DNA of 64,000 bases, from positions 1 through 64,000 of the forward strand of contig PXQU01000001.1 of assembly GCA_003021785.1 (NCBI GenBank), read 5' to 3'. The notes under the pieces are model-generated. The model was not told the origin of the DNA. It worked only from the letters and a program-made list of their open reading frames with translations, and did not search any database. A program made the translations under genes and the position numbers. The first letter of the stretch is position 1. Each line of letters begins with the position of its first letter. Source of the stretch: Halobacteriales archaeon QH_7_65_31. Lineage in GTDB: Archaea > Halobacteriota > Halobacteria > Halobacteriales > Haloarculaceae. This document shows positions 5,134 through 40,010 of the stretch, in pieces.

Positions 5134-5952
5134 TCATAGATCCGTCCCCCGGAATCGCAGATAGCCACCGACGAGCGGGAGCGCGAACCACGCGAGCAGG
5201 AGGACGACAGCCGTCTCGCCGCCCAGATACCACGGCGCGTCGGGACCGAGGAACGGGCCCGTCTCGCGACCGACGACGAAGCTGGCGAGGATGCGGTCGT
5301 AGAGGAGCGACGGTTCGAGCCCGTAGACGAACAGCGCCCAGTCGGGCAGCCCGCCGGTCGCGGTCGTCAGTCCGAGAGAATCCAGCGCGAGTGCGAACAG
5401 CCCGCGGAGATTCGACCAGAAGGCGACGGCGACGACGACGCCGAACGCGCCGACGGTCGCGCGCCGCGGGGAGACCGTCAGCGTCGAGAGCGCCAGCGCG
5501 AGTGCGAACAGCGCCAGCGCGAACAGGAGCGTCGCCGACAGATAAACCAGTAGCTCGCCGCCGTCCACCGTCCCGAACGGGTACGAGACCAGCCATGCCC
5601 CGACGAGCGCGCCAGCGAGGATGGACCCGACGACGACCGCACCGCGCGCGACGAACTTCCCGACGAGCACGTCGCGCCGGGAGTGTGGCAGGGTGAGCAG
5701 CAGCGTCAGTCGTCCCGCCGCCCGGTCGCCGACGATGGCCCGGTAGCCGAACAGCAGCGCGAACGCCGTTATCAGGAGCGGCGTGATTCCCGACAGTCGG
5801 CGGGCGTACGTCACCATCGTCCCTCTGGGACTCGCGCCGGCAGCGTAGCCGCCGACAGCAAAGATGAACGCGACGAGCGCGATCGCTATCTTCACGGAGC
5901 GGCCGTCGACGAGGGTCGCGAACTCGCGGCGAGCGATCGGTCGCCACGACAT
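5134..5952 (-). CDS. ABC-2 type transporter permease (first permease of the operon)
   Basis: A 272-residue permease with about six membrane helices, starting MSWRPIARREFATLVDG. The loop YRAIVGDRAAGRLTLLLTLPHSRRD matches the coupling loop of its paralogue downstream. The ATG at 5952 overlaps the stop of the ATPase gene (TGATG), so translation is probably coupled; a GTG one codon earlier is the only nearby alternative. Together with the ATPase and the second permease it should form a drug, peptide or lipid exporter in the cytoplasmic membrane. Several haloarchaeal genomes carry such cassettes next to stress genes, but nothing here fixes the substrate. Confidence 0.9.
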   Translation of the reverse strand: MSWRPIARREFATLVDGRSVKIAIALVAFIFAVGGYAAGASPRGTMVTYARRLSGITPLLITAFALLFGYRAIVGDRAAGRLTLLLTLPHSRRDVLVGKFVARGAVVVGSILAGALVGAWLVSYPFGTVDGGELLVYLSATLLFALALFALALALSTLTVSPRRATVGAFGVVVAVAFWSNLRGLFALALDSLGLTTATGGLPDWALFVYGLEPSLLYDRILASFVVGRETGPFLGPDAPWYLGGETAVVLLLAWFALPLVGGYLRFRGTDL

Positions 5953-6863
5953 CACGCCGTTCCCCGCGTGTACTCGACGAAGAGATCTTCGAGCGAGGCC
6001 TCCTCCGTCGAGAAGTCGAGCACATCGACGCCGCGGTCCTCCAGCGCGACGAGCACGTCCACCTTCGCGTCGTTCTCACAGGTGACGCCGAACTGATCCT
6101 CCGATTCGAGCCACGCGGTGTCGACGCCGTCCGTCGCTTCGACGGCGGTGAGATGCGCCTCGTCGGGATCATCGACCGTGATGAGGAGCTTCGTCCCGCC
6201 GCCGGCCGTCTCGCGCAGCCCCTCGATGGTATCGACGGCCGCGAGCCGACCGTGGTGCATGATGCCGACGCGGTCACAGACCGCCTCCACCTGTTCGAGC
6301 ACGTGCGACGAGAAGAAGACGGTCGTCCCGCGCTCGTTTTCCGCGGTGAGTATCTCGCGCATCGCCTTCGCACCGTTCGGATCGAGTCCGCTCGTCGGCT
6401 CGTCGAGGACGAGCAGGTCCGGACTCCCGACGAGCGCCATCCCGAGGACGAGCCGCTGGGCCATCCCCTTCGAGTAGCCACCCGCCGGTCGGTCGGCCGC
6501 GTCGGTGATGTTGACCCGATCGAGCACGTCGAACGGCTCGCCGTCGACGCCTTTCGACTCCATGGCGAACTCGATATGCTCGCGACCGGTCAGCGACTCG
6601 TAGACGGAGTACCCCTCCGGCAGCACGCCCATGTGTTCGCGGGCGGCGACGCTGTCGGTCTGACAGTCCGAACCGAACACCTCGACCGTCCCCGTCGTCG
6701 GGCGGGCGAAGTCCAGTAGCATGTTGATCATCGTGGACTTGCCCGCGCCGTTGTGGCCGAGGAAGCCGAATATCTCCCCCTCCTCGACGGTGAGGTCGAT
6801 GCGGTCGACGGCGGTCACCGACCCGTACCGCTTCGTCACCTCTGTCGCGCGTATCGCTGCCAT
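5952..6863 (-). CDS. ABC transporter ATP-binding protein (ABC-2 exporter ATPase)
   Basis: A 303-residue ATPase that powers the two permeases after it. Walker A is GFLGHNGAGKST (about residues 33-44), the signature motif is the variant GGYSKGMAQRL, Walker B is LLVLDEPTSGLDP, and the switch histidine is in FFSSHVLEQVE. The C-terminal 80 residues form the DrrA-type extension, ending EEASLEDLFVEYTRGTA. It is closely similar to the ATPase at 37801-38730, which is in the second ABC-2 cassette of this window. First gene of a three-gene operon; a TATA box and a palindrome lie just upstream. Confidence 0.94.
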   Translation of the reverse strand: MAAIRATEVTKRYGSVTAVDRIDLTVEEGEIFGFLGHNGAGKSTMINMLLDFARPTTGTVEVFGSDCQTDSVAAREHMGVLPEGYSVYESLTGREHIEFAMESKGVDGEPFDVLDRVNITDAADRPAGGYSKGMAQRLVLGMALVGSPDLLVLDEPTSGLDPNGAKAMREILTAENERGTTVFFSSHVLEQVEAVCDRVGIMHHGRLAAVDTIEGLRETAGGGTKLLITVDDPDEAHLTAVEATDGVDTAWLESEDQFGVTCENDAKVDVLVALEDRGVDVLDFSTEEASLEDLFVEYTRGTA

Positions 6864-6915: not shown

Positions 6916-6969
6916 TCACTCGCGGTAGGCGTCCCGTCGGTGGCTCACCCGCTCTACCGTCCCGGTCTC
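6916..6969 (-). pseudogene. Severed 3' end of the secretion-ATPase gene, left of the island
   Basis: Read on the minus strand this piece ends ETGTVERVSHRRDAYRE and a stop. The complete gene at 9596-11665 ends ETGTVERVSHRRDAYK and a stop. The 41 bases 6929-6969 are identical to 9606-9646. The simplest reading is that this is the original 3' end of the ATPase gene, cut off when the island inserted, while the island supplied a replacement end to the intact copy. Only about 17 codons remain here. Confidence 0.8.
6929..6969. repeat. attL-like direct repeat (41 bp, left copy)
   Basis: The 41 bases are identical to 9606-9646 and in the same orientation. The identity begins and ends sharply, apart from scattered matches after the right edge. 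It marks the left boundary of an AT-rich insertion. Such repeats at a gene's 3' end are the product of site-specific integration that rebuilds the target gene. Confidence 0.85.
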
Positions 6970-7157
6970 ATTGGCGACATATCTACGCTCGCACAAGAGC
7001 AGAAGTAATTGTCAGACCAGTCGATCAGGCCGGATGCTCCCATCTGTAGTCAGTGGGGATCAAAAGTATTTAAATCCGCATTCTTGCTAGAAAACTCGTA
7101 TACCGATTGACCGACGGTGTCGTTGAACGAGGTACGAGAACTGTCGTATTGCCCCCG
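6970..7157. other. Gene-free left end of the island
   Basis: An AT-rich stretch with a tttaaatcc motif near 7069 and no convincing open frame on either strand. It could hold element control sequences or decayed genes; I see nothing definite. Confidence 0.4.
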
Positions 7158-8375
7158 TTATCGGAATGCAGTCACAACGCCATGGTCTACTGAGTATACG
7201 ACATCACCGGCAACGATCGTCTCGCCGTCGCTCGATAGATTTGGAATCTTCCATGTGGCTTTACCATCAGTTGTATCAAGACCACGCATCTCCTCGCCTG
7301 TTCTTGTAATGATGGACTGTTCGGTGACAATGGGTGGACTTCGGGGCCCTTGTTCCATCTCGTTAACCCACTCAACGGTTCCATCTGTCGTTGAAATGGC
7401 GTATACACCGGGAGTCTCTGATTCAGCGACCGTCATATACACATGCTCCGAATTACCTCCAAGCGCGTACACTCCTGCTGGAACACTCTTTGTCCAGCCA
7501 TCTTTGTCCTCACTGATCGGATTAGATACCAATTGACCAAACATCTCATCTACCGAGTAAATTACTCCCTCCTTGTAGTATCGCTCATCTTTAAAGTCAG
7601 CGCCAGATTCTTCAGGTCCGTTTATTAATTTACCTGTCTGCGTTTTAATCGACCATGGTATTTGTCCATTGTGACCGGTTGCAACGAAGACACGGTCATC
7701 GCTGGCGAATAAGTATCGTTCCCAAGGGTCTCCAATTGTTTGTGTCCACTTCCTCGACCCGTCCTCAATCGCAAGGCACACGACGGTAGGTTCCGACTCA
7801 CCCCCGATGAAATAGATGCCATGAGAGGCAGCAACTACGGTCGGTTTGTTAATTACGTTCTCGCTGTCATAAAGATCGCGCCTGTTTGGTGTCTCTTTGC
7901 TCCATATCTCTGTTCCATCGTCTGGACTGAGCGAAATAATTCTCTTCCGAGTCGGGATAAATATCTGTTCAGCGACGAAGAACGGTGAATACGAAGCTGA
8001 TTCAGTGGAGATCTGCCAGTATTTATCACCAGACCTAGCATCGAAACAAAAAACAGAACCATCTCGACTGGTTACATATAGTCGATTGCCTGTGACAATG
8101 GGGGTAGAGAGGTCTTTCTCTGTCTGAATCCGCCAAAGTTCAGCGACAGATCCAGTCGGTCCAGGAAGGCTGGATACGCCTCCACTGAGACTAGGATCAT
8201 GGCGAGGCATTGGCCAGTCTGAGCTGATGTTGTTCGGCACATCTGGAGAACCCGCAGTCGATGTTTTTGTCTCTGTTGGAGAGGAGTCGTTCTGGGTCTG
8301 TCCAGTAGTACATCCTGCGAACGCTACGAAACCCATCGTCGAAAGTACTTTGCGGCGTGTCTGCTGTGTTATCAT
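7158..8375 (-). CDS. Tat lipoprotein with PQQ-like beta-propeller repeats
   Basis: A 405-residue predicted surface lipoprotein. Residues 7-8 are a twin arginine (TRRKVLSTMGFVAFAGC) and Cys22 is the lipidation site, followed by a Thr/Ser-rich linker. From about residue 80 it shows repeated blades with the BamB/PQQ signature: VTGNRLYVTSRDGSVFCFDA, SPDDGTEIWS, IEDGSRKWTQ, ISTTDGTVEWVNEM, DTTDGKATWKIP, about 40 residues apart, which suggests a seven- or eight-bladed propeller. Such domains usually bind proteins rather than PQQ. It lies 82 bases behind the zincin on the same strand inside the island, with its own TATA box. Codons are more AT-rich than in the flanking chromosome, as expected for acquired DNA. 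Confidence 0.82.
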   Translation of the reverse strand: MITQQTRRKVLSTMGFVAFAGCTTGQTQNDSSPTETKTSTAGSPDVPNNISSDWPMPRHDPSLSGGVSSLPGPTGSVAELWRIQTEKDLSTPIVTGNRLYVTSRDGSVFCFDARSGDKYWQISTESASYSPFFVAEQIFIPTRKRIISLSPDDGTEIWSKETPNRRDLYDSENVINKPTVVAASHGIYFIGGESEPTVVCLAIEDGSRKWTQTIGDPWERYLFASDDRVFVATGHNGQIPWSIKTQTGKLINGPEESGADFKDERYYKEGVIYSVDEMFGQLVSNPISEDKDGWTKSVPAGVYALGGNSEHVYMTVAESETPGVYAISTTDGTVEWVNEMEQGPRSPPIVTEQSIITRTGEEMRGLDTTDGKATWKIPNLSSDGETIVAGDVVYSVDHGVVTAFR

Positions 8376-8395
8376 ATCTGACTATTTTATTCTGA

Positions 8396-8410
8396 GATTA
8401 TATATCTTTT
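8396..8410 (-). promoter_or_regulatory. TATA box of the propeller lipoprotein gene
   Basis: AAAAGATATATAATC on the minus strand is centred about 27 bases before the ATG at 8375. It shows that the lipoprotein gene has its own promoter although it follows the protease gene. Confidence 0.65.
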
Positions 8411-8457
8411 GACGGTGGTTTCAATTGGTATACTATCAACCAATAACCAAGACAATT

Positions 8458-9267
8458 TTAGAAATTATCTTTGACGTAACTAATGCAATCATCAGTCGCT
8501 TCGTCAAAGCAACTTGATGTCCTGAGGCTGGCATAGTCGGGTGCTGCTGAATCAGTACAGTCTCCGCAGTCCGAATATCTATCATATTGTGCCATTATCG
8601 TGTGATGTTCCAGATTAAAACTGCGTGCATCTTTACATGGCGTGACATTATCAGCTAGATAGTGAGATTTTCGACCATTGTCATCCCCACAGAAGTATGT
8701 TCCATAGTCACTATTCCACGAAGAAGTTGGAGCACAGAATTGATGCCCCAACTCATGTCCGGGAGCCCAATAGACACCCCTGTTTCGACAGTAACTGTCC
8801 AGAGTCTCTGATCCTTTTACGCTTATTGGGCCATAACGAGGTCCATTGTACTCGTATGGCATAGAAACATGGTTATTATAATTAGTACCAGAGTATGTTC
8901 CTCCCTCGTTAGCAGGATGGTCATTATCGTTGGGATGTATAAACACATTTCCTCCCCCGTCTTTCCAGTGTCCAAGTTCGTATACCACGTCTCGCCCGTA
9001 CTGGTACTGATCACAGTTTTCATTAGCTGTACAGTCCAAATAGCCGGTGATATCTGTTTCATAAATTTCTATCCGATATCCAGTTAATGCGAGAATATTG
9101 TCCATCATAATGCCCAAATCGTTTGCTATATCACCTAATTCCGAAGTATTCTGCCCATCCGTTTGGTATACTCGGACTAAAGGACTGTACCAAGAACTGG
9201 GAGTATGGCTGTTCTCAATCGAATTAATGAGCGTAGCTGATACATTCGATGGTGATGGCGATGGCAT
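8458..9267 (-). CDS. Cysteine-rich zincin-like metalloprotease
   Basis: A 269-residue protein with GHELGHQFCAPTS at residues 170-182. His171, Glu172 and His175 form the HExxH zinc site. Downstream HHTIMAQYDR (221-230) resembles the Met-turn of metzincins. The usual metzincin third ligand (HExxHxxGxxH) would fall at 181, which is Thr, so His201, His221 or His222 would have to replace it. Ten cysteines (79, 85, 160, 178, 193, 211, 234, 237, 253, 261) suggest disulphides and a life outside the cell. Yet the protein starts MPSPSPSNVS with no signal peptide, and the reading frame upstream is stopped at once. Either secretion is unusual, the N-terminus was lost, or the enzyme acts on leaving the cell. 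Function unknown. Confidence 0.78.
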   Translation of the reverse strand: MPSPSPSNVSATLINSIENSHTPSSWYSPLVRVYQTDGQNTSELGDIANDLGIMMDNILALTGYRIEIYETDITGYLDCTANENCDQYQYGRDVVYELGHWKDGGGNVFIHPNDNDHPANEGGTYSGTNYNNHVSMPYEYNGPRYGPISVKGSETLDSYCRNRGVYWAPGHELGHQFCAPTSSWNSDYGTYFCGDDNGRKSHYLADNVTPCKDARSFNLEHHTIMAQYDRYSDCGDCTDSAAPDYASLRTSSCFDEATDDCISYVKDNF

Positions 9268-9290
9268 AGATCTGAAATTTCATCCATAGA

Positions 9291-9300
9291 ATAAAATATT
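9291..9300 (-). promoter_or_regulatory. TATA box of the zincin gene
   Basis: AATATTTTAT on the minus strand lies 24-33 bases before the ATG at 9267. This supports that ATG as the true start of a leaderless message, and so the absence of a signal peptide. Confidence 0.6.
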
Positions 9301-9595
9301 TGTGGCTGAACGAGCACCCGGAGTGTAATCCAGAAATCATTTTTGATTATATCTTGATCTTAGTGTGGACTTTCGATTCGGAATTTCAGAACAGAATGCC
9401 GACATTCTAATTAACTAGCTATGTTTGAGTATAGATGTTGGCCTCTCATAGGTATAAAACTCACTGAGCTGTTGAGCGGTGTTTTAGCTAAACTTGCGTC
9501 AAGTCCGTTAGTGAACATTGTGATAGATCAACTCAAATATGCGTTCGTAAGTAGAAGTATGGTGTTTAGTAGGCATAAGGGAGTTACTCACACCG
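9301..9595. other. Gene-free right end of the island
   Basis: An AT-rich stretch with several stops in all frames. A plus-strand frame from 9421 encodes about 55 residues of mixed hydrophobic sequence before it reads into the antisense of the neighbouring ATPase; I do not consider it a gene. No integrase remnant could be recognised. Confidence 0.4.
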
Positions 9596-11665
9596 TCACT
9601 TATACGCGTCCCGTCGGTGGCTCACCCGCTCTACCGTCCCGGTCTCGTCGGTGTACAGATCGGCGAGGAAGCCGAACAGCTCCGCGGCCCGATCGATCTC
9701 CTCGTCGACGAGATACTCGACGTAGCGGCGCTTGCGATCGAACTCGGCGGCGAGGGCCGCAGTCGACTGATCGGTTCGGACGGCGAGCCGATCGGCGACG
9801 GTCGTCCTGTCGAGCGAGAGCGCACCGTCACCGCGCGACCAGTGTTCCGTCCACGCGGGCGTGACTGCGGAGCCAGCTTCCGTCGCGGCGTCGGTGAACC
9901 GCCCGACCGCGGTGACCCGGCGTTCGCCGTCGATATGCCGGGTGACGAGGACGGCATCGAGCCGCCGGGTCGTCTCCGCCGAGTCGGTCCACTCGGCGAG
10001 CCGTCGGGCGAACACGTCGGGATCAGCGGCGTCGACCGTCGCGAGCACGCCCGCGCCGGCGGCCAGCCGCTCGGCCAGCAACTCGCTCCGTCCCGGCCCG
10101 TCTACGTCGTCCAGTACGGTGATCGAGGGATCGATGGCCGTGAGCTCCGCCCCGACGTCGGTGACTGAGATGCGGCGCTCCGGGTCGGCGTGGTCGTGTG
10201 TCGCGAGCCGAAGCGACGAGTCGTGCGGGACGGTGACGCCGGCGGTGTCGCCGGCGACGACCGGACGGTGATCGTGGGGGACGAACGGAAGCAGCGCGTT
10301 CAACAGCGTGGTCTTGCCGGCCCCGCGCTCACCGACGATCGCGATCGTTCCGCGCGTCTCGGCCAGCAGCCAGCAGAGCGCGACCGCACCGGCGGGGAGC
10401 CGGTCGGCGGCGACGAGTTCGGGCGCTGTCGGCGGGTCAGCTGGTCGACGTCGGACCGACAGCTGCGGGCCGCTGTCGGTGGTCCGGGCGAGACCGAGCG
10501 TGCAGTCGAGGGTCGCGTCGGTCCCCGACGGGCGCACGGTGACGGTCGCCGTCGGCGTCTGCGCTGACAGGTCGGTTCCGCCGGCGGCCGCGAGCCGACG
10601 CACCTGCTCGCGGAGCGAGTCGGCGTCGAACTCGATGTTCGTCGGGAGCCGACGGGCCGCGCCGTCGCGCGGTCGGACGGTGACGCCGCTCTCGACGGAC
10701 GCCTCGACCGCGTCGAGCCGCTCGTCTCGCAGCGGAATTGTCAGCCGTCCCTCGCCGACGAGATCACGGACCACGTAGTACGAGAGGTCGTCGAGCCGAT
10801 CCGGCGCGACCGCCGGCTCGACGGGCGGCGCGGCGAGATCGCAGTCGGCGAGCAGTCGGCGGACGCGTGCGCGGCTAGCGGTGAGCCACGCCGACGGGGT
10901 AGCGGCCGTCAGCTCGTCGCGGAGGAGCCGTCGCGCTCTCGCCTCCACCGCGTCGGGATCGTCGGTGTCGAACTCGTCGGCAGTCGCCAGCAGCCGTCGG
11001 CGACAGCGGTCGATGCGGTCGCGGTCACCGGGGCGCAGCGGCGGCTCGTCGACGGCGTATTTGAGGGTGAAGCCGTCCGTACCGAGCGTGCGGTCGCGGT
11101 AGCGGACGACCGGTATCTCGTATCCGCAGAAGTCGACCGTCTCCCGGGATCGGCGCTCGCTCGCCAGTCGCGCGACCCGGTCGGGAGCCGCCTCGAACTC
11201 CGTGAGAGCGGGCGCGAACCGCTCCGTGTGGATCGCGACGGTCTCGCCGGTGTCGACAGTCTCGATCCGGTCGTCGAGCGCGAGCGGCGTCAGCTCGCCC
11301 AGCCCGCGGTGGGTAGCGCGGAGATGGTAGTCGAGCCGGCGGGTCGTCGCGGGCGGGCCGTCGTACGCCCGATCGCGTCGCTCGCGCCACGACGCCGGAA
11401 GCGGTTCAGTGAAGCGTTCGCGAACTCCCGTCGTGGTCCGTGGCGGCGCGCGTCGCGCGGCGGCGAACCGGTCGTGCAGCTCGTCGAGGGTGTCGCGCAC
11501 GTCACCGGGGATAGACGGCTCGCGCACCTCGTACGCGAACGGCGCGTCGCCCGCCTGCTCGCGGATGGTCGCGACGACTCCCGGGGAGACCTCCGTCTGT
11601 GCGCGAACGTCGGGGGCGTACCACGCCTCGGGGTCGTCGGGCGCGACCGGAGCCGGGATCTCCAT
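9596..11665 (-). CDS. Type II/IV secretion-system ATPase, GspE/TadA/VirB11 superfamily, divergent
   Basis: A 689-residue ATPase of the secretion superfamily that drives archaeal pilus or secretion machines. The N-terminal about 200 residues are variable. The middle carries the family's N-terminal domain (CGYEIPVVRYRDR, YAVDEPPLRPGDRDR, LSYYVVRDLVGEGRLTIPLRD). The RecA-like core has Walker A IVGERGAGKTTLLN near residues 441-454, then a weak Walker B ITVLDDVDGPGRSELL and GVLATVDAADPDVF. A TadC-like membrane partner would normally follow, but the 2.7-kb island begins at its 3' end and no partner is seen. The last codons (DAYK, stop) come from the island; the older end (DAYRE, stop) is at 6916. 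A TATA box precedes the ATG. Confidence 0.82.
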   Translation of the reverse strand: MEIPAPVAPDDPEAWYAPDVRAQTEVSPGVVATIREQAGDAPFAYEVREPSIPGDVRDTLDELHDRFAAARRAPPRTTTGVRERFTEPLPASWRERRDRAYDGPPATTRRLDYHLRATHRGLGELTPLALDDRIETVDTGETVAIHTERFAPALTEFEAAPDRVARLASERRSRETVDFCGYEIPVVRYRDRTLGTDGFTLKYAVDEPPLRPGDRDRIDRCRRRLLATADEFDTDDPDAVEARARRLLRDELTAATPSAWLTASRARVRRLLADCDLAAPPVEPAVAPDRLDDLSYYVVRDLVGEGRLTIPLRDERLDAVEASVESGVTVRPRDGAARRLPTNIEFDADSLREQVRRLAAAGGTDLSAQTPTATVTVRPSGTDATLDCTLGLARTTDSGPQLSVRRRPADPPTAPELVAADRLPAGAVALCWLLAETRGTIAIVGERGAGKTTLLNALLPFVPHDHRPVVAGDTAGVTVPHDSSLRLATHDHADPERRISVTDVGAELTAIDPSITVLDDVDGPGRSELLAERLAAGAGVLATVDAADPDVFARRLAEWTDSAETTRRLDAVLVTRHIDGERRVTAVGRFTDAATEAGSAVTPAWTEHWSRGDGALSLDRTTVADRLAVRTDQSTAALAAEFDRKRRYVEYLVDEEIDRAAELFGFLADLYTDETGTVERVSHRRDAYK
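9606..9646. repeat. attR-like direct repeat (41 bp, right copy)
   Basis: Identical to 6929-6969. It encodes the last residues of the intact ATPase (VSHRRDAY region), so the reading frame survives integration. It marks the right edge of the island. Confidence 0.85.
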
Positions 11666-34926: not shown

Positions 34927-36267
<1,341 letters not shown>

Positions 36268-36367
36268 CACCAGTTGTTACGAATCGAATGTTTGTAAAAA
36301 TACGGATTGGCGTTGGAGACTCAGCCCTGCTGTCGAACGTGGTATGTGCAGTAGTTGTCAGATTTAT

Positions 36368-36387
36368 CCCCGCGCTAAAGCACGGGG
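36368..36387 (-). repeat. Left-end hairpin of the tnpB element
   Basis: CCCCG-C-GC-TAAA-GC-A-CGGGG, a stem-loop with a 5-bp outer and 2-bp inner stem, is typical of haloarchaeal IS200/IS605 left ends. It lies about 100 bases upstream of tnpB. Confidence 0.7.
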
Positions 36388-36475
36388 TTTCTCCTCGATT
36401 CTCCGTAAGCCTGCAACTGTCCCACTGAGAACGGCCCGTCAAAAGCACGAGTTGTCGAGTGGATTAACAATTACC

Positions 36476-36958
36476 TCATACGACGAGCCGGACGAGGGAG
36501 GACGCGACGACGAACGCAACGAGTTGCGTCACTGGAGCTAACAACACGACTGCTCGCGATTTGTAGTAGCCTGCGGCGGCGTAGAGTCCCGAAAGTGCGA
36601 TCACGCCAAGTGTGAAGTTGGCGACTCCACTGGCGAACAACGACGAGCTGAGCGGCGCGTCTGAGACTGTCGCCGGGTTATCTATGACGAGGAAGAAACT
36701 CCCAAACAAGGCCACTGCACCCGCAACAACTCCCCACAGGCCGAGGCCGACGGCGACTGCCGGCTGCTCGCTACGGTCGTAGTGGAGGTATGCGAGTGTC
36801 GCGATGACCGCCGGAAAGCCGATTGTGAGGACAAAATCCAAATTCCCGAATTTGAGGATGCGCAGCCCTCTCCCGATAGCGAGGAGACCTCCGATGACAG
36901 CGAATCCGGTGATTGCAGCATCAATACGTCTGCGGTCAATTGTGGTTGTAGTGTTCAT
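36476..36958 (-). CDS. Membrane protein of unknown function, 4-5 helices
   Basis: A 160-residue protein starting MNTTTTIDRRRIDAAITGFAVIG. Its hydrophobic segments are about residues 10-30, 42-58, 65-95, 110-130 and 140-158 (VVLLAPVTQLVAFVVASSLV). The frame continues upstream without a stop into an apparent gene fragment (see 36959-37258), but the ATG at 36958 begins a typical cytoplasmic N-terminus. Base composition is somewhat AT-richer than core genes. Located in the accessory zone between two transposon remnants; no family recognised. Confidence 0.6.
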   Translation of the reverse strand: MNTTTTIDRRRIDAAITGFAVIGGLLAIGRGLRILKFGNLDFVLTIGFPAVIATLAYLHYDRSEQPAVAVGLGLWGVVAGAVALFGSFFLVIDNPATVSDAPLSSSLFASGVANFTLGVIALSGLYAAAGYYKSRAVVLLAPVTQLVAFVVASSLVRLVV

Positions 36959-37258
36959 AGCTGGAGAACAATCCGACAGTGAGAAATGCTTTCTGATGGT
37001 GTACGCTCGGAAGATCTCGTACAGGAATCTTCTGTTGTAGTAGCTTGTTTTCACCAGGACGTTCTCCGTAGCGTCGACAACATCTGAGTCATTCTTCCAC
37101 GAGTCCGGGTTATTGTTGATCGTGTCGAAGATGGTCCCGACGTAGTCGTGGGAGACCCCTGCGAGATCCTTCGCCGCTTGAGAGGGATAGTATGTGTTGT
37201 TGGGCGTCTTATTACTGATGATCTGGGGATTCTCTCCAGTGCCTGTTCTCCGCGACTA
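36959..37258 (-). pseudogene. Fragment of an unknown gene fused in frame upstream of a membrane-protein gene
   Basis: The minus-strand frame is open from a stop just above 37258 into the membrane-protein gene. It encodes IISNKTPNNTYYPSQAAKDL, AGVSHDYVGTIFDTINNN, DSWKNDSDVVDATENVLVKT and SYYNRRFLYEIFRAYTIRKH. This is protein-like and includes a helix-turn-helix-like stretch (SQAAKDLAGVSHDYVGTIF). It has no ATG, and a stop cuts it off at its 5' end, right beside the hairpin of the transposon remnant at 37282. I take it as the 3' remnant of a gene broken by that element. Family not recognised. Confidence 0.4.
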
Positions 37259-37281
37259 CTCCGAACAGCACTGGTGAACTA

Positions 37282-37706
37282 CCCCGACCTACCGCGCTCG
37301 GGCCTACCCGGCCCTCGCTTGTTGAGGTCGGGGCTTCCTGTTTCTGCGTCGGACCTTGTACCCGACGTGGGCACAGTGGTTCCAGACTCCGCAGGCGATT
37401 TCCCTTCACAGGTGGTTCGGAGTGTCCCACTCCTACCTGTTGGACCCTCGGCCACAACCGACGATGCGCGCTTCTTGTCGCGCTTGAACACCGCCGGAGA
37501 CGTGGTGAGCATCATACTACCTCGTTCGACTGCAAGGGTAGTAAAACCTTGGAACAAAGCGGAAGAAAATGATGACGGCATTGACGAGGCGCTTCGCGTC
37601 TCGTTCGCACACCAGAAATCTGCGATTTCTGGGGACGCTGTATCCCCACCCTACTCGCTTGTGCTTCCGACCGCAGTCGGAAGCCCTGCGCTCGTTGAGG
37701 GTGGGG
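37282..37706 (-). mobile_element. Internally deleted IS200/IS605-type element (MITE-like remnant)
   Basis: Two strong hairpins frame about 425 bases: CCCCGACCT-34-AGGTCGGGG at 37282-37333 and CCCCACCCT-45-AGGGTGGGG at 37644-37706, the second with an inner CTTCCGAC-4-GTCGGAAG stem. Between them, on the minus strand, the frame ending AETGSPDLNKRGPGRPERGR resembles the loose C-terminal tail of haloarchaeal TnpB proteins. The rest of tnpB is gone. A further perfect inverted repeat CCAGAAATC-3-GATTTCTGG is at 37612-37632. I read it as a gutted element in the same orientation as the intact one. Confidence 0.6.
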
Positions 37707-37800
37707 GCTTAGCGCCTGCATACATTTAAACCGATACAGTCGAATCAAGTCAGCTAACGATCAATTGCTTAACTAGCGGTGCTCTTCGGACCCCAGTAAT
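37707..37800. other. AT-rich spacer between transposon remnant and ABC genes
   Basis: Nothing recognisable; contains ttaaacc and gatcaattgcttaac stretches, without an open frame. Confidence 0.4.
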
Positions 37801-38730
37801 CTATACACTGCGCTCTGATTCGACACGCCCCGTCGTGTGAGCGATGAACACATCTTCTATTGATGGTTCGTGAATAGTGAACGAAACAACGGATACAGCC
37901 GTGTTTTCAATCGTTTGTATCACGGGCCACCGGGCGTTGGATCCACGCGTGACGACAACGACCTGATTCCCATCCTCAGTGACTTTGACCACCCCGTCCT
38001 GAGCACGGAGTGTCTCGTCGAGGCCTGATGGGACGTGATCTAACATGAATCGAAGTGATGACTCAACAGCAACCTGTTCACGGAGATCATCAATACGACC
38101 TTCGGCAATTAGGTTGCCATCATCGAGAATACCGATTCGATCACAGACGAGTTCGACCTGACCGAGAACGTGACTGGAAAAGAACACTGCTGCGCCCCGG
38201 TCGTTCTCCTCGTAGACGATGTTACGGATCGTACGCGCCCCATGTGGATCAAGCCCGGTGAACGGTTCATCGAGGATCAGTAGGTCGGGGCTTCCGACAA
38301 GTGCCATTGCTACCCCGAGTCGTTGTTGCATCCCATTCGAATACGTTCCAGCTTGACGATCGATCGCATCACTCAATCCGACCCGAGCGAGGAGTTCTTC
38401 GGGTGTATCTGACGCGTTCTTCGAGTCGATAACGTAGTTGAGATGTCGGCGTCCAGTTAATCGCTCGTAAACGCTAAACCGATCAGGGAGGATGCCAACA
38501 CGTTGGTGGATCTCGACTACGTCGTCTCGTGGATCGCAGCCGAGTATGCGAGCCGTCCCCGCAGTTGGACGGACGTAATCCATAAGCATACTAATCGTCG
38601 TTGATTTTCCAGCCCCATTCGGTCCCAAGAAGCCATACACTTCTCCGTCTTGGATCTCTAGGTCCAGCCCGTTGACTGCAGTTTCCGATCGATACTGTTT
38701 CGTGAGGTCAGTGGTGGTGATTACAGTCAT
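37801..38730 (-). CDS. ABC transporter ATP-binding protein (second ABC-2 cassette)
   Basis: A 309-residue ATPase with Walker A GFLGPNGAGKSTTISML, a variant signature GTYSNGMQQRLGVAMAL, Walker B LLILDEPFTGLDP and the switch His in FFSSHVLGQVE. A DrrA-like C-terminal extension ends EPSIEDVFIAHTTGRVESERSV. It resembles the ATPase at 5952 closely, including GILPDRFSVYERLTGRRHL versus GVLPEGYSVYESLTGREHI. It follows the permease gene by 18 bases on the same strand. Codon use is more AT-rich than in the first cassette, which suggests a separate arrival. Confidence 0.93.
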   Translation of the reverse strand: MTVITTTDLTKQYRSETAVNGLDLEIQDGEVYGFLGPNGAGKSTTISMLMDYVRPTAGTARILGCDPRDDVVEIHQRVGILPDRFSVYERLTGRRHLNYVIDSKNASDTPEELLARVGLSDAIDRQAGTYSNGMQQRLGVAMALVGSPDLLILDEPFTGLDPHGARTIRNIVYEENDRGAAVFFSSHVLGQVELVCDRIGILDDGNLIAEGRIDDLREQVAVESSLRFMLDHVPSGLDETLRAQDGVVKVTEDGNQVVVVTRGSNARWPVIQTIENTAVSVVSFTIHEPSIEDVFIAHTTGRVESERSV

Positions 38731-38748
38731 TCGTTTACACGCTCCGAA

Positions 38749-39699
38749 TTACGCGAGATCCGCCTTCCGGAATCTGTAGTAGCCAACCGAGAAGGGGACG
38801 AGAATCCATCCGGCAAAGACGAGCAGTGCCAGTTCTTCGTGTAGTACGAATAGTGTGTCTGATCTACTGAATGCGAGTTCAGCCACAAGGGCATTCGACT
38901 GCGTGTTCGGTTGAAGATCCGCAAGCACACCAACTATCCACGAGGCCGAGTTGCCAGTAGACAGGATCCAATTTGTGAGGACGTTGTACGCTCCGGCTGG
39001 TGCTAGTCGATGGAGTAGAAATAGGCTTTCTGATGCTGGCGGGTTCAGCGGGTTGACTTGGATCCCCGTCAGGGGCGTGTAGATCTGGTAGACGACGAAA
39101 TCCACCCACCCCAGAATGAAGACGAGATAATAGCTAAACGCAGCGGTTGCCGCCTGAATCGAGGTGGTCACCGCGGCTGAAATCGAGACACCGACGCACA
39201 CGTTTAGAAGCAGATAAACAACTGAAACCGCTACGAAAAGGGCGAACTTGCTGAGTGAGAATAAGCCATACTGGAGTGTTCCGAGTCCACCAACAATCAG
39301 GAACGTAAGTAGTAGGGGTACACAGAGAACCGCTGTTTGCCCGATGACTTTTCCGAGAAGAATATCGTGGCGGCGAACCGGCATTCCACTGACGAATTTC
39401 ATACTCCCAGATTCACGTTCGCTAACAACAGACCGGTGACTGAGGAGAACAGCACCGAACGTTGCAAAGATACTGACTGGGCCTTGAAACGCCGCAAGTG
39501 TCGTGTTACTCTCTAATGCAGCGACAACGTATGATGGGCCACCGATGGAGAGATAACTGGCGAGTATGAGGAAGCCACTCAAAAGCCAGAGACCTTTCGA
39601 TTGGATATGATCATGGAACTCCTTTCGGGCAAGGGGGGACCAGCTCACGATGAAAAGTACCCATTGATACCGTATATATCTGGGATGCCGTTTTTCCAT
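38749..39699 (-). CDS. ABC-2 type transporter permease (second ABC-2 cassette)
   Basis: A 316-residue permease with about six helices. SPLARKEFHDHIQSKGLWLLSGFLILASYL is the N-terminal amphipathic helix plus helix 1. LSHRSVVSERESGSMKFVSGMPVRRHD is the coupling loop. The end VGYYRFRKADLA matches the tails of the permeases at 4272 and 5134. The first 18 residues (MEKRHPRYIRYQWVLFIV) look like an extension and the real start may be a little downstream. It forms an exporter with the ATPase; only one permease is present, so it would be a homodimer. Confidence 0.9.
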   Translation of the reverse strand: MEKRHPRYIRYQWVLFIVSWSPLARKEFHDHIQSKGLWLLSGFLILASYLSIGGPSYVVAALESNTTLAAFQGPVSIFATFGAVLLSHRSVVSERESGSMKFVSGMPVRRHDILLGKVIGQTAVLCVPLLLTFLIVGGLGTLQYGLFSLSKFALFVAVSVVYLLLNVCVGVSISAAVTTSIQAATAAFSYYLVFILGWVDFVVYQIYTPLTGIQVNPLNPPASESLFLLHRLAPAGAYNVLTNWILSTGNSASWIVGVLADLQPNTQSNALVAELAFSRSDTLFVLHEELALLVFAGWILVPFSVGYYRFRKADLA

Positions 39700-39740
39700 G
39701 AGACTTTCGAGAATATTACGCTAATTCGATTTTTCAGCTT

Positions 39741-40010
39741 TCAGAATCCATTATCGGCCTGTAGAACAGTCCCACTGCCGTCCGCGTTCTCTCGAAGTTC
39801 GATGACTGGATTGTCCGTATTGTTCGGAACTGTGTGGACGACTTCACCCTCGACATATGAGTCAAAGTACGAACTGAAGATATCCAGATCAGTGTCCACT
39901 GTCCCGTTCCAATTCCAGAATGGAACATTTGTTTCTCCCGTTGTACTTCTGTTGATGTTCGAGACTGTGGTGTATGGAGAGGCGACCTCCCACTCAATCG
40001 TATGAGTCAT
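39741..40010 (-). CDS. Small acidic protein upstream of the ABC-2 cassette, family unknown
   Basis: An 89-residue acidic frame, MTHTIEWEVASPYTTVSNIN..., rich in Asn, Thr, Asp and Trp (FWNWNGTVDTDLDIFSS), with no cysteine, signal peptide or membrane helix. It ends 41 bases before the permease start on the same strand, so it may be the first gene of that operon. Placement and size would suit a secreted or exported peptide, but there is no leader motif such as GG and no homology I know. It could also be a gene fragment. Confidence 0.5.
   Translation of the reverse strand: MTHTIEWEVASPYTTVSNINRSTTGETNVPFWNWNGTVDTDLDIFSSYFDSYVEGEVVHTVPNNTDNPVIELRENADGSGTVLQADNGF

Follow-up and report, generated by a model that had tools for sequence, protein, structure and literature searches.

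An AT-rich 2.7-kb island lacking an integrase at the rebuilt 3' end of an ATPase gene in a haloarchaeon

In the genome of a Halobacteriales archaeon (G000; assembly of 2.25 Mb in 16 contigs, 90.6% complete), the 3' end of a gene encoding a FlaI/TadA-like ATPase is occupied by an AT-rich island that is bounded by exact 41-bp direct repeats and carries two cargo genes. The island is probably a tyrosine-recombinase element that is missing its integrase, that is, a CIME-like remnant. The preliminary description of the window, which is the 64,000-nucleotide stretch of contig C1 analyzed here, had proposed the footprint of site-specific integration, left by either a satellite or a deleted element. 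This proposal is supported by two relatives: in one (G002) the site is empty, and in the other (G004) the ATPase gene end carries a different insert.

The direct repeats that bound the island lie at 6929-6969 and 9606-9646, both read on the minus strand, and the match extends to 46 of 49 nt over 6926-6974 and 9603-9651. No third copy of the 41-bp core was found in the 2.25-Mb assembly, even when 3 mismatches were allowed. Identical 20-mer pairs spaced 0.4-25 kb apart in the window numbered 43, of which 22 belong to the island repeat and 21 to CRISPR repeats, and first-order Markov shuffles of the window gave 0 such pairs in 20 of 20 cases. The GC content of the island is 0.452, compared to 0.659 for the remaining window, and the GC3 values of the cargo ORFs (0.46 and 0.38) are below those of the flanking genes (0.86 and 0.88). 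The exactness of the repeats and the AT-richness, both given in the preliminary description, were thus confirmed. A second stretch of lower GC content (0.50-0.56) is located at approximately 36000-40000 in the window, for which no flanking direct repeats were detected in the scan.

The target gene (9596-11665, minus strand) encodes a 689-residue protein that matches the archaellum ATPase (E = 1.5e-25) and TadA-like (E = 4.6e-15) families of NCBIfam, both below the cut-off, and its orthologues in G004 and G002 are 74% and 72% identical, respectively. Matches to this ATPase at E<=1e-60 were present in 96 of the 146 family genomes; the gene's label as essential-looking in the preliminary description was not borne out. 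The copy of the repeat at 9606-9646 lies within the rebuilt gene, which keeps its frame and ends in DAYK followed by a stop at 9596-9598, whereas the copy at 6929-6969 (minus strand), distal to the gene, comprises the displaced last codons of the native gene. The remainder of the native end (6916-6928, minus strand) reads AYRE with a stop at 6916-6918; the displaced end is DAYRE, and both ends were found in the sequence as the preliminary description had claimed. Since the gene ends in DAYRQK in G002 and in DAYR in G004, the displaced end is of the native type, and the tail of the rebuilt gene was supplied by the island. Beyond the displaced end lies a gene for an ABC transporter ATPase (5952-6863, minus strand), the counterpart of which directly follows the target gene in G002.

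Only two cargo genes are located between the repeats, as had been reported. ORF1 (7158-8375, minus strand; 405 residues) encodes a PQQ_2 beta-propeller protein (Pfam PF13360, E = 1.3e-30), the start of which resembles, by eye, a Tat lipoprotein signal. ORF2 (8458-9267, minus strand; 269 residues) encodes a putative metallopeptidase, an assignment that is based on an HExxH motif (HELGH), since no match to ORF2 was found in Pfam, NCBIfam, PHROGs or PDB sequences. No signal peptide was seen in ORF2, and an AlphaFold2 model from the single sequence had a mean pLDDT of 30 and was unusable. Both ORFs are preceded, by eye, by a TATA-like box approximately 23-32 nt upstream of the ATG, a distance that suits leaderless haloarchaeal transcripts. 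Matches to ORF1 at E<=1e-20 were found in 3 of 195 order genomes including its own, the others being G005 (38%) and G156 (36%), and matches to ORF2 in 2 of 293 order genomes including its own, the other being G095 (33%). No exact repeat longer than 18 nt flanks the ORF1 relatives in G005 and G156. The ORF2 relative in G095 has HEIWH at the corresponding place and, by eye, a Tat-like start that is absent from ORF2.

The remainder of the island is non-coding. In the left end (6970-7157), the frames between stops are at most 39 residues long and no integrase match was observed; in the right end (9268-9605), the last 10 bases (9596-9605) form the new gene end, encoding YK and the stop. A tblastn search of the island with 10 integrases returned nothing below E = 5.4, and neither cargo ORF matched a recombinase, relaxase or transfer protein in Pfam, NCBIfam or PHROGs. 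The genome contains 7 matches to Pfam Phage_integrase (6 above the cut-off), all on contigs other than that of the window, although a broken integrase missed by Pfam sits on the window's contig at approximately 106 kb. The claim that the island contains no integrase therefore stands. No debris of a lost integrase was detected in the island, which counts against the remnant reading, and so do the open cargo ORFs, which suit a young or functional unit equally with a remnant.

Comparison with relatives shows how the site looks without the island. In G002, the site is empty, as the preliminary description had suggested might be found in relatives: a single copy of the core is present, and the flanks of the window island join with a 44-nt overlap. 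When 3 mismatches were allowed, 3 of 146 family genomes contained the core: G000 has two copies, and G002 and G004 have one each. In G004, an unrelated insert of approximately 2.1 kb, bounded by 20-nt repeats that are 85% identical, is located at the same ATPase gene end. This insert encodes another PQQ-repeat protein (28% identity to ORF1 over approximately 110 residues) and, approximately 40 nt from the ATPase stop, a broken fragment from the C-terminal part of a tyrosine recombinase, which corresponds, in two frames, to residues 336-435 of a 435-residue relative (E = 4.8e-10). Two intact relatives of this recombinase match PHROG integrases and fall under the Pfam integrase cut-off. The G004 insert was presumably placed there by its recombinase, the repeats being short for such an assignment (20 nt, 85%). 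The suggested check for larger elements with the same attachment site in the same gene was favorable in part: a different insert with a recombinase fragment was found, but no larger intact element with this core in the 146 family genomes or in viral contigs.

It also counts against the remnant reading that the recombinase family of the G004 piece was not matched in the 6 genomes of the genus at E<=1e-5, a search for which a positive control among these genomes was lacking. In 60 kb around relatives of this recombinase in five genomes, a single exact repeat of at least 18 nt was located near the integrase (21 nt, in G011). A wider hotspot outside the genus was considered and rejected: downstream of 40 of the 91 matching ATPase loci (6-14 kb each), a second gene end was found in none, and the longest exact match to the last 80 bp of the ATPase gene was 15 nt. 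In G003 and G005, which belong to the same genus, the downstream context of the ATPase gene differs. A shared insertion site is claimed only for G000, G002 and G004.

The genome of G000 carries further integrated elements, which were sought as direct repeats 0.4-25 kb apart in 719 kb (32% of the assembly), made up of the window, a 40-kb stretch surrounding each of the 7 Pfam integrase matches and further stretches; the elements described here are among the pairs listed. Three elements occupy tRNA genes, and in each the integrase frame is open and lies close to the distal repeat: the tRNA-Gly element (18 kb, GC 0.61), the tRNA-Phe element (8.9 kb, GC 0.53), of which partial repeat copies occur at two distal positions, and the tRNA-Val element (4.2 kb, GC 0.48). 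Their repeats are 22-64 nt long. Not all integrases fit this scheme, because 4 of the 7 Pfam hits have no flanking repeat of at least 20 nt in their 40 kb. Two GC-rich pairs other than CRISPR repeats were also listed, at C1 24555/25733 (GC between the copies, 0.70) and C16 221272/222091 (0.65).

For the 3.7-kb element at C1 103192-106930 (GC 0.53), the repeats are exact over 52 nt and cover the 5' end (probable start codon and first 16 codons) of an HFX_2341_N-family gene. The distal end of the element contains an integrase that is spread over two reading frames and continues beyond a stop codon; it matches positions 17-354 of the integrase frame (356 residues) in the tRNA-Phe element (E = 2.6e-48), and its pieces alone match no Pfam or PHROG integrase. 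The element also carries two other ORFs, one lipoprotein-like and the other small and helix-turn-helix-like. In G002, the flanks of this element join with a 52-nt overlap.

For the 0.8-kb island at C16 194521-195399 (GC 0.41), which is the second island without an integrase (no match at E<=10), the repeats are 73 nt long with 71 identical positions, lie 806 bp apart and end 12 nt short of the stop of a VOC/glyoxalase-like gene (Pfam, under the cut-off). It contains one small lipoprotein-like frame, with a signal-like stretch just upstream in another frame. The rebuilt gene ends in HELPPL and the displaced end reads HETPDT, compared to HETPDS in G004 and HETPEI in G002; the displaced ends of the ATPase and VOC genes alike thus resemble the native-type ends of the relatives. 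The flanks of the 0.8-kb island join in G004 (72-nt overlap) and in G002 (71 nt), and one-copy empty sites were found in G002 for 3 of the 3 islands in protein genes.

These comparisons bear on two alternatives to the recombinase-based remnant. The first is that host homologous recombination integrated, by one crossover, a circle that bore part of the ATPase gene end. Such a crossover gives an identical footprint, and the 73-nt repeat of the 0.8-kb island, with its 2 mismatches, is like a diverged gene piece; however, a 41-bp repeat is short to support homologous recombination efficiently. This route would also leave unexplained why the ATPase gene end in G004 is occupied by unrelated DNA that includes part of a recombinase and why the integrase-bearing tRNA-gene elements have repeats of similar length (22-64 nt), and we regard it as quite improbable. 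The second is an assembly artefact or chimera, for which the division of a 90.6% complete assembly into 16 contigs leaves some room. The reading frame continues intact into the new gene end, G002 has a clean empty site, and two further islands of the same geometry also have clean empty sites, which makes an artefact scarcely credible.

A genus-wide rule was not supported: a similar repeat scan that covered 400 kb in each of G004 and G002 detected a single island, at a tRNA-Tyr gene of G002. The scan missed the worn ATPase insert of G004 and so undercounts old cases. The G002 island (G002:C7:120982-125544; 4.5 kb, GC 0.56) has 30-nt exact repeats, one of which lies within the tRNA-Tyr 3' end.

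The simplest account of these elements is a series in which the integrase is open at the tRNA genes, broken at the HFX_2341 gene and in the G004 ATPase insert, and absent from the ATPase and VOC islands. Because stages of integrase decay are present elsewhere in the genome, a deleted element is favored over a satellite. We infer that a tyrosine recombinase was the agent and that the integrase was lost rather than originally absent. In this scenario, the final codons of the ATPase gene would have served as attB, and the recombinase would have joined them to the attP of a circular element. Because attP would have borne a near-identical copy of the gene end, integration would have given the gene a slightly altered tail and moved its native end to the distal side. 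With the later loss of the integrase gene, the two cargo genes would have remained between the att copies, an arrangement that amounts to a CIME. At present, the island is probably not self-mobile, and an integrase reading the same core could still excise it.

A satellite, or hitch-hiker, would never have needed an integrase of its own and would be moved in trans by a virus or plasmid integrase sharing the att site; its appearance in the sequence would not differ from that of a remnant. In agreement with this, the island is compact and free of debris, and both of its open cargo genes are preceded by a TATA-like box. The genome also contains a further integrase-less island with this geometry, and another element, one with a recombinase, has used the ATPase gene end in G004. 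A helper carrying the exact or near-exact core was, however, not found in the 146 family genomes, apart from the genus's own gene ends, or in viral contigs. No parent element was found either, by the core in the 146 family genomes or by island DNA in 391 class genomes, plasmids and phages. Island DNA had no match in plasmids or phages and no long match in the class genomes, where only two short matches (31-34 nt), involving 2 other genomes, were seen. ORF2 had no match in viral contigs, plasmids or phages, and ORF1 had none in plasmids at E<=1e-10. In addition, none of the 62 spacers of this genome (two arrays) and the 34 of G004 matched any of the three protein-gene islands over at least 20 nt, and no further such islands were found in 400 kb each of G004 and G002. 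On this evidence, a satellite is an unlikely explanation, if one that deserves attention. The outcomes named as refuting in the preliminary description, namely the cargo genes without the repeats in relatives or an unrelated duplication as the source of the repeats, were not seen, island DNA having no long match in the 391 class genomes.

A broader proposal is that the genus carries minimal islands (0.8-2.7 kb, 1-2 genes, a lipoprotein-like product each) that are integrase-less by design, use protein-gene ends as att sites, rebuild them and are moved by passing virus or plasmid integrases. We consider this proposal doubtful, more so than a satellite origin of the ATPase island alone; if true, these islands would be among the smallest satellites proposed for archaea.

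Near-identical CRISPR repeats are present in the window at 2135-2768 (10 copies), in G000 at C13 ~182150-185660 (54) and at G004:C1:668074-670339 (35). The G004 array is located in the region that corresponds to the short array of the window, approximately 9 kb from the ATPase gene. One G004 spacer matches the tRNA-Gly element of G000 over 21 of 21 nt (C13:134001-134021) and also matches G004:C1:633595-633623 over 28 of 29 nt. These matches may be a sign that this type of element is targeted and that the G004 spacer is self-matching.

The island, read as a remnant, belongs to a familiar type of element, although its target is less common. CIMEs are decayed ICEs or IMEs of bacteria that have lost their integration and transfer genes and kept attL and attR (PMC5704250). 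The island likewise retains both att sites at the end of its target gene, with cargo between them and no integration or transfer genes. CIMEs are bacterial and derived from ICEs or IMEs (PMC5704250), whereas the island is archaeal and a conjugative or mobilizable ancestor was not seen.

Archaeal elements in protein genes are also documented. In a thaumarchaeal survey, 14 of 74 elements (casposons included) lie in protein genes, one of these replaces the stop codon at a gene 3' end, and one orthologous gene holds unrelated elements in two species and is empty in two others (PMC6563490). Such cryptic integrated elements resemble the island in their insertion into the 3' part of a protein gene, in the stop supplied by the element and in sizes down to 2.6 kb, and they resemble the ATPase site in that orthologous genes are hit by unrelated elements and empty elsewhere (PMC6563490). 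The island shows the site-specific insertion, the direct repeats and the restored gene of these elements, whereas they encode an integrase by definition (PMC6563490) and the island has none. A review of archaeal tyrosine recombinases also mentions sites in protein genes (PMC8371274).

For Haloquadratum, one study describes prophages in tRNA genes and deletions at short repeats (PMC3119063). Haloarchaeal tRNA-gene elements, the three of this genome included, share with the island a partial copy of the target gene on the far side of an AT-richer insertion, but differ in their tRNA-gene sites and in the integrase beside one end (PMC3119063). The literature search, which covered few subscription papers, returned nothing, by title or abstract, that deals with islands lacking an integrase at the ends of protein genes in haloarchaea.

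Overall, one haloarchaeal genome contains integrated elements in which the integrase is intact, broken or absent, and three of these elements are located at protein genes and have clean empty sites in a relative. The ATPase site provides a defined att pair within a protein gene, which could be used to test movement in trans. If integrase-less islands do move in trans, haloarchaea would have in them a simple means of exchanging cargo genes and altered protein ends.
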